DNA of 58,247 nt, taken from the NCBI GenBank assembly GCA_024680795.1, contig JAILBR010000069.1:1-58247 (forward strand), in the 5' to 3' direction. The stretch's first letter is position 1. Each line of letters begins with the position of its first letter. A program made the position numbers and the translations under genes. Positions 30,618 through 31,805 of this stretch are shown in pieces. The stretch is from Bacilli bacterium (GTDB lineage: Bacteria > Bacillota_I > Bacilli_A > RFN20 > CAG-826). A model generated the notes under the pieces. The model did no database searches. It was given only the letters and a program-made list of their open reading frames with translations, and had not been told where the DNA came from.

Positions 30618-30692
30618 TGGCTGGGGTACTTGGATTCGAACCAAGGAATGTCTGGTTCAGAGCCAGATGCCTTTCCGCTTGGCTATACCCCA
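30618..30692 (-). tRNA. tRNA-Gln (anticodon CTG)
   Basis: TGGGGTATAGCCAAGCGG..., anticodon loop CTCTGAA, acceptor TGGGGTA/TACCCCA, GCCA end. Confidence 0.93.
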
Positions 30693-31805
30693 TTATTGTG
30701 CTAAACGGACTTCGAGAACTCCTGGAACCTCTTCTTGAAGAACTACTTCGACTAAATCTTTAATGTCAGATGAAGCGTATGCGCATCCATCACATGCGCC
30801 ATGCATTTTGACATAGACAATACCATCTTTAAAATCGACGAATTCGCAATCTCCTCCATCTCTTCTTAAGAAGTGTCTAATTTTATCTAATGTTTCATTA
30901 ATGAGTGTAATTGTATCTTCTTCCATACTTTTATCCTTTATTTCTAAATGATATCCGTCATAAGCATCTTTCGCATTTTGAAGGAAGTGGTTGGCTACCA
31001 TCATGAAGTCGAAATTATGAGCCTTTCCTTCGCCACGATAATGCTTGGTGATTGCAACATTATACCACTGCAAGGAAATAAAAATCCTCCATAAATAGTA
31101 TCTTTTGATTTTATCTTCACTTGGATTGCCATTGAAGTAAACATCTAGCAATTTTCTTCCCTCGCTAACGGTGCCATTTCCAAAAGCAGCAATATCGTAG
31201 ATTGGATCATTATTTCCTACGAACTCGAAATCGATAAAGAAATATTCATCATCTGGAGTTTTGACAATATTACTTCTTTGGGCGTCATTATGACAAAGTG
31301 TCTTCATTTGTCTTTCGAGATATTCTTTTCTCTCAAAAAGGAAATGTCTTAACTCTTTATATCTAGGTGAAACATCATTTTGGAAAGATAATGCTTCTTT
31401 TTCATAAATGTTTTCGAAGCGGCCAAAAGGGTTATAGTCTTCCCTACTTAACATGATGGAATTATGAAGTTTATGGAAAAGAGTGGCTATTTTTTCATAA
31501 TCAAATGAAGCGATTTTATCGATGGAGGTGCCTTCGATGTACTCATTCATCTTAATTCCTGTATTCTCATCAAAGTAAATATTTTTACTTGTGATGCCTA
31601 ATGAGTAAGCGATTTGTTGATGTTCTTTTTCTAAGGGCCGATCAACCATTTCATTAGCTTGTTCAGTTGGAATATATAGAACGTATTTCATTCCGTTTCC
31701 ATCCTCAACGATATATGAAATATTCATCATTCCACCTAATAAAGGCTCGATGATTTCGCTATTATTTCCTAAGATTTCGTGAACTAATTTTGTAACTTTT
31801 TCCAT
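30693..31805 (-). CDS. fusion: LicA/choline-kinase-like (APH superfamily) phosphotransferase + C-terminal Nfu/NifU Fe-S scaffold domain
   Basis: Kinase: LCHNDAQRSNIVKTPDDEYFFIDFEFVGNNDPIYDIAAF. Nfu: LRRDGGDCEFVDFKDGIVYVKMHGACDGCAYASSDIKDLVEVVLQEEVPGVLEV. One continuous frame. Confidence 0.88.
   Translation of the reverse strand: MEKVTKLVHEILGNNSEIIEPLLGGMMNISYIVEDGNGMKYVLYIPTEQANEMVDRPLEKEHQQIAYSLGITSKNIYFDENTGIKMNEYIEGTSIDKIASFDYEKIATLFHKLHNSIMLSREDYNPFGRFENIYEKEALSFQNDVSPRYKELRHFLFERKEYLERQMKTLCHNDAQRSNIVKTPDDEYFFIDFEFVGNNDPIYDIAAFGNGTVSEGRKLLDVYFNGNPSEDKIKRYYLWRIFISLQWYNVAITKHYRGEGKAHNFDFMMVANHFLQNAKDAYDGYHLEIKDKSMEEDTITLINETLDKIRHFLRRDGGDCEFVDFKDGIVYVKMHGACDGCAYASSDIKDLVEVVLQEEVPGVLEVRLAQ

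Follow-up and report, generated by a model that had tools for sequence, protein, structure and literature searches.

A gene that joins a kinase of the LicA/choline-kinase fold to a complete Nfu domain raises two questions: how such a fusion came about, and whether its halves act together or side by side. The gene lies on the minus strand of a 58,247-nt stretch of DNA from a Bacilli bacterium (contig JAILBR010000069.1; hereafter the window), and the original prediction, made from this sequence, had described it as one uninterrupted 370-aa frame encoding both a LicA/choline-kinase-like phosphotransferase and a full Nfu domain. Analysis of the open reading frame and the Pfam scores both bore this description out. 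The features of the gene and its flank are as follows.

30693..31805, minus strand: kinase-Nfu fusion gene, 370 aa (ORF and Pfam; same ORF in 18/19 genus genomes)
30942..31805, minus strand: kinase domain, residues 1-288 (Pfam APH/Choline_kinase, fold model, free-gene junctions and alignment A2)
31725..31727, minus strand: Met27, aligned with LicA Thr29 (alignment to 4r77)
31674..31676, minus strand: Tyr44, aligned with LicA Lys45 (alignment to 4r77)
31269..31292, minus strand: catalytic loop HNDAQRSN with H172, D174 and N179 (alignment A2)
31224..31232, minus strand: metal-binding D192-F-E194 (alignment A2)
30927..30941, minus strand: junction or linker, residues 289-293, IKDKS (fold model, junction comparison and conservation)
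30696..30926, minus strand: complete Nfu domain, residues 294-370 (Pfam NifU at 302-366 and junction comparison)
30783..30794, minus strand: CxxC with C338 and C341, presumed cluster ligands (invariant in fused proteins)
30618..30692, minus strand: tRNA-Gln(CTG) gene (ARAGORN)

Architecture and distribution of the fusion

The frame runs for 370 codons without a stop, and a profile scan placed three Pfam models above their cut-offs within this single ORF: APH at residues 19-226 (46.6 bits, cut-off 23.2), Choline_kinase at residues 19-209 (45.9 bits, cut-off 29) and a nearly full-length NifU match (PF01106) at residues 302-366 (76.1 bits, cut-off 27). The motifs quoted in the original prediction (HNDAQRSN, IDFEF, DPIYDIA and CxxC) were all found as described. 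Measured against free orthologues, such as the one at locus L099 that ends in DAFDGYQKEIK before its stop codon, the kinase domain of about 33 kDa is of full length. In an AlphaFold2 model built from 18 fused sequences (mean pLDDT 88.5, pTM 0.76), the last kinase helix (residues 267-288) is followed almost directly by the first Nfu helix (residues 292-315), which indicates a linker of about five residues. Mean identity was 73% in the kinase and 86% in Nfu, and fell to 58% in residues 288-297, the least conserved stretch of the protein. On the same strand, the first base of the neighboring tRNA-Gln(CTG) gene immediately follows the fusion gene's stop codon, and similar sequence is also found downstream of the gene in several relatives.

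The same open fusion was present in 18 of the 19 species-level genomes of the genus, in frames of 365-401 codons without stops; the lone genome without it, G005, is 72% complete. The 17 other fused proteins share 65-74% identity with that of the window, and the named records come from rumen and gut assemblies (rumen, goat, horse and other samples) of several projects, where they are labelled Bacilli, Bacillales or Erysipelotrichaceae bacterium. Between close pairs, dN/dS was 0.03-0.10 for the kinase and 0.00-0.13 for Nfu, and by this measure purifying selection is strong on both halves. The window's genome is fragmented (72 contigs, 74% complete) and might harbor an assembly error, frameshift or chimera, but the fusion must be genuine because the same junction recurs in 17 further genomes from several projects, at the protein identities given above and with low dN/dS in both halves, and with 18 genomes carrying the fusion we regard an artefact as ruled out, its probability being practically nil.

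Relatives were sampled in an order set of 97 related genomes and a class set of 197 genomes, the class figures referring to the best matches listed. No comparably long Nfu frame outside the genus appeared among the matches listed from either set, and within the genomes sampled the fusion is confined, among those matches, to a single genus. The listed Nfu frames of the other Bacilli sampled span 73-197 codons, in agreement with the earlier statement that Nfu proteins of Bacillota normally stand alone. A choline-kinase-Nfu architecture had also been thought to be without a published description, and a literature search of open-access papers found none. The architecture is real, apparently undescribed and unusual for Bacillota, and is composed of two known domains.

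Proposed origin from neighboring genes

Sister genera encode the kinase in a gene of its own, which usually stands third in line, after genes for a YegS-like diacylglycerol/lipid kinase (dagK) and a PlsC-type acyltransferase (plsC). This order was found in about 14 loci of relatives (L061, L063-L067, L101, L102, L106, L107, L109, L115, L116 and L118), sometimes with genes for a membrane protein and LemA after the kinase. The nfu gene of relatives adjoins a conserved block, ychF-ispF-argS-rpoE-nrnA-cysQ (gene names taken from sequence and searches), from which it usually differs in strand; in many cases it lies a few kb from the kinase gene and has the same direction. In some sister genera, the two genes are separated by 3-10 kb or fall on different contigs. 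At L102, L106, L107 and L109 the kinase is directly upstream of nfu with a gap of about 100 nt, and at L095 the gap is about 60 nt and a single TAA separates the two genes, whose frames are in register. An extended -10-like element, TGnTATTAT, occurs shortly before the nfu ATG at all five of these loci. In the fused genus the spacer between kinase and nfu is gone, and one fused subclade retains the start of the free gene in frame (ATT-ATG-GAT-GAC-ACA-GAA-AAA-TTA-ATT-ATT).

The fused kinases form one clade, corresponding to a single change on the tree (support 94/94; 200/200 bootstrap trees). We propose that the fusion arose once, from two neighboring genes. The third gene of the dagK-plsC-kinase (lipid) operon would have been brought into a position immediately before nfu, with both genes pointing the same way; two complete frames would then have been joined when the kinase lost its stop codon and the short spacer disappeared together with the promoter of nfu, as the arrangements in relatives suggest. 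If the fusion grew from such an operon neighborhood, chance proximity is sufficient as its origin. Most fused genomes still have a dagK-plsC pair elsewhere (e.g., G000:C7:47111-48883), with membrane-protein and lemA genes downstream and the kinase absent after plsC. A search for dagK gave no match in G016, G004 and G011, nor in the incomplete G005; the first three of these keep the kinase-Nfu gene.

Several further observations were made at these loci. A LicD-family gene lies near the free nfu in three sister genera (L061, L062 and L068), and in five genomes from family f5 of the same order (G081, G083, G089, G093 and G096) a pair of nfu-like genes is separated by a few hundred bases. Both at the fusion gene, where the element is upstream of position 31805 of the window, and at the nfu genes of L102, L106, L107 and L109, the start codon lies about 13-20 nt past an extended -10-like element and no Shine-Dalgarno sequence precedes it. 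This spacing and the missing Shine-Dalgarno sequence suggest that mRNAs in this group are leaderless or carry only very short leaders.

Catalytic site and substrate of the kinase half

The best PDB match of the kinase half was the choline kinase LicA (4r7b; Foldseek E 2.5e-16, TM 0.78 by target length), and its fold and its HxDxxxxN and DxE motifs place it in the APH/choline-kinase superfamily. Residues H172, D174, N179, D192 and E194 were invariant from the fused proteins through distant free relatives, and the last four correspond in the alignment to Asp176, Asn181, Asp194 and Glu196 of LicA. The fold, the Brenner loop and the DxE metal site are shared with LicA of Streptococcus pneumoniae (4r77, 4r78 and 4r7b), which differs in lacking the C-terminal Nfu domain and in much of its pocket. 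LicA binds choline through a pocket of Y197, E213, W251, W254, Y268 and V178. As we read the alignment, the fusion retains the tryptophan (W251 as W247) and an aromatic residue for Y197 (F195), but E213, W254 and V178 align with N210, V250 and Q176, and Y268 falls beyond the aligned part, so that most of a LicA-type choline pocket is missing from the fusion kinase.

The genome of the window encodes a separate 588-aa protein with HTH-like, nucleotidyltransferase and LicA-like parts (L147, G000:C40:205-1968), which carries GLTN, VYRHPG and W-x-x-W motifs and is a better choline-kinase candidate than the fusion. This protein is likely a LicC-LicA-type fusion. The description of the kinase half as a choline kinase, as originally given, therefore stands for its fold and superfamily, with LicA as the best PDB match, and was rejected for its function because the pocket is mostly lost and a better candidate is present. 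CcrZ likewise combines a choline-kinase fold with an altered pocket; being inactive on choline and active on ribose, it shows that a change of substrate is possible with this fold (PMC9135335). CcrZ differs in having no Nfu domain, and the fusion was rejected as a CcrZ orthologue since it reached 16.6 bits with the CcrZ model (NCBIfam NF046102), far under the cut-off of 400. We infer that the substrate of the kinase half is most likely not choline but another small molecule, with a lipid head group or another small alcohol as plausible candidates; the lipid-related part of this reading comes from an operon context that is no longer present in the fused genus.

The ATP-phosphate site also departs from LicA, with Met27 and Tyr44 in place of the P-loop Thr/Ser29 and Lys45. 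The P-loop hydroxyl is needed in LicA, where a T29A mutant keeps about 10% of its activity (PMC4364537). Methionine and tyrosine were found in all fused proteins and in all free relatives except five distant ones, of which L027 and L028 have threonine with tyrosine, and L029-L031 have serine with arginine. From the residues in these exceptions, the basic residue was apparently lost first and the P-loop hydroxyl second, and both replacements seem to be older than the fusion. Catalysis by the kinase half is not assured, as the equivalents of LicA Thr29 and Lys45 are gone.

Alternatively, the kinase half may have degenerated into a pseudokinase whose role is that of a targeting or binding domain for Nfu. 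The invariant Met27 and Tyr44 that stand in for LicA Thr29 and Lys45 would fit such a role, and NfuA provides a precedent, as its degenerate N-terminal A-type domain targets Nfu to clients (PMC8593673). We consider this reading somewhat unlikely: the residues of the catalytic loop and metal site (H172, D174, N179, D192 and E194) are invariant in fused proteins and free orthologues alike, and both replacements, being common to the free orthologues, predate the fusion. NfuA and NifU are likewise multidomain proteins with a C-terminal Nfu domain, but their N-terminal parts are Fe-S modules (a degenerate A-type domain and an IscU-like part, respectively), whereas that of the fusion is a kinase. 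With the NfuA model (TIGR03341) the fusion reached 22.9 bits against a cut-off of 269, its N-terminal half being APH/choline kinase.

The Nfu half and the question of coupling

Each of the 18 fused genomes contained exactly one Nfu by PF01106, always within the fusion. The original prediction had asked whether another nfu or sufU was present: the window's own genome has no second Nfu, and its SufU lies within an intact sufC-sufD-sufS-sufU-sufB operon on another contig. SufB and SufD were found in 18 of 19 genus genomes. A-type carriers (SufA type, PF01521) and the SufT family (PF01883) were absent from all 19, while both profiles gave matches in control genomes. The Nfu of the fusion is the only recognised Fe-S carrier of the genus among the families searched (PF01106, PF01521 and PF01883). 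In this the genus differs from Bacillus subtilis and Staphylococcus aureus, in which both SufA and Nfu have been characterised as carriers (PMC8593673).

The best solved match of the Nfu half was the S. epidermidis Nfu (PDB 1xhj), with which its CxxC aligns, and C338 and C341 were invariant in 18/18 fused proteins. A PF01106 score over the cut-off and a conserved CxxC identify it as an Nfu-type carrier that is predicted to bind and transfer clusters. Like stand-alone Nfu proteins of Bacillota (1xhj; S. aureus Nfu), it has a complete domain with the CxxC and DGGD motifs and occurs beside SUF; it differs from them in sitting behind a kinase and in being the sole recognised carrier. One suggestion had been that the protein is a kinase with its own cluster carrier. 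Because the Nfu half is the only Nfu of the whole genus, it is better read as a general carrier with an attached kinase.

We think it likely that the protein is bifunctional, the product of a single, genus-wide fusion in which both halves keep their ancestral tasks and are tethered by a short linker. The Nfu half most likely takes clusters made by SufBCD/SufS/SufU and would pass [4Fe-4S] clusters to client enzymes via its CxxC; judging from the Nfu family, it is probably a cluster-bridged dimer, which would pair the kinase halves too. The kinase half would phosphorylate a small, probably lipid-related alcohol with its rearranged ATP-phosphate site. The halves most probably work side by side, although coupling is possible. 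Given the neighborhood origin, the facts are sufficiently explained by a chance fusion that was then retained because both halves are indispensable.

The original prediction had also suggested that the fusion might tie Fe-S delivery to the phosphorylation of a small molecule. Functional coupling would mean that the cluster occupancy of Nfu (apo/holo, monomer/dimer) controls the kinase, or that the kinase steers delivery to membrane or lipid enzymes. Consistent with coupling, a fusion of two complete proteins persists across 18 species, purifying selection acts on both of its halves, re-separated halves were seen in no species of the genus, and the gene is retained in G016 and G004, which gave no dagK match. 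We nevertheless judge coupling unlikely. Proximity alone accounts for the origin, the separation of kinase and nfu in some sister genera argues against any necessary pairing of the two, conservation is lowest in the linker, and the indispensability of each half could by itself keep a fusion in place.

The gene might also give rise to two proteins, with internal initiation producing free Nfu besides the fusion. We scanned the 31 codons around the Nfu boundary for start codons in the 18 fused species. Eight species, including that of the window, have an ATG that coincides with the ancestral nfu start or adjoins it; in the window, this internal ATG at the Nfu start lies near the starts of free nfu genes and has AAAGGA 7 nt upstream. 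Seven species had no ATG, GTG or TTG within the 31 codons, and the remaining three had a start codon at another place within them. Free Nfu would thus be possible in the window's species but is no general feature of the genus, a general internal start being ruled out for at least those seven species, and we hold the two-product reading to be distinctly unlikely.

In a stricter form of coupling, the kinase would be gated by the Fe-S cluster, the cluster-bridged Nfu dimer acting as a switch, and the phosphorylation of a lipid-related metabolite would then report on Fe-S supply or respond to it. We consider this very unlikely; if true, carrier-borne clusters would be routed via a regulated kinase, since the cell has no other recognised carrier.

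The bifunctional protein of our preferred reading, in which the halves work side by side, came about by an ordinary route, which tempers the interest of a fusion that combines the genus's only recognised carrier with an unusual kinase subfamily. The genus presents a natural experiment, in which a general Fe-S carrier without recognised back-up is tethered throughout to a 33-kDa kinase, and the steps of the fusion are preserved in living relatives. The genus shows that Nfu can be something other than a small, free shuttle, and the fusion makes it testable whether joining a carrier to another protein implies coupling. It also draws attention to the dagK-plsC-kinase operon and to an atypical kinase subfamily, marked by methionine and tyrosine for threonine and lysine at the ATP-phosphate site, in which the catalytic loop and metal site are retained.
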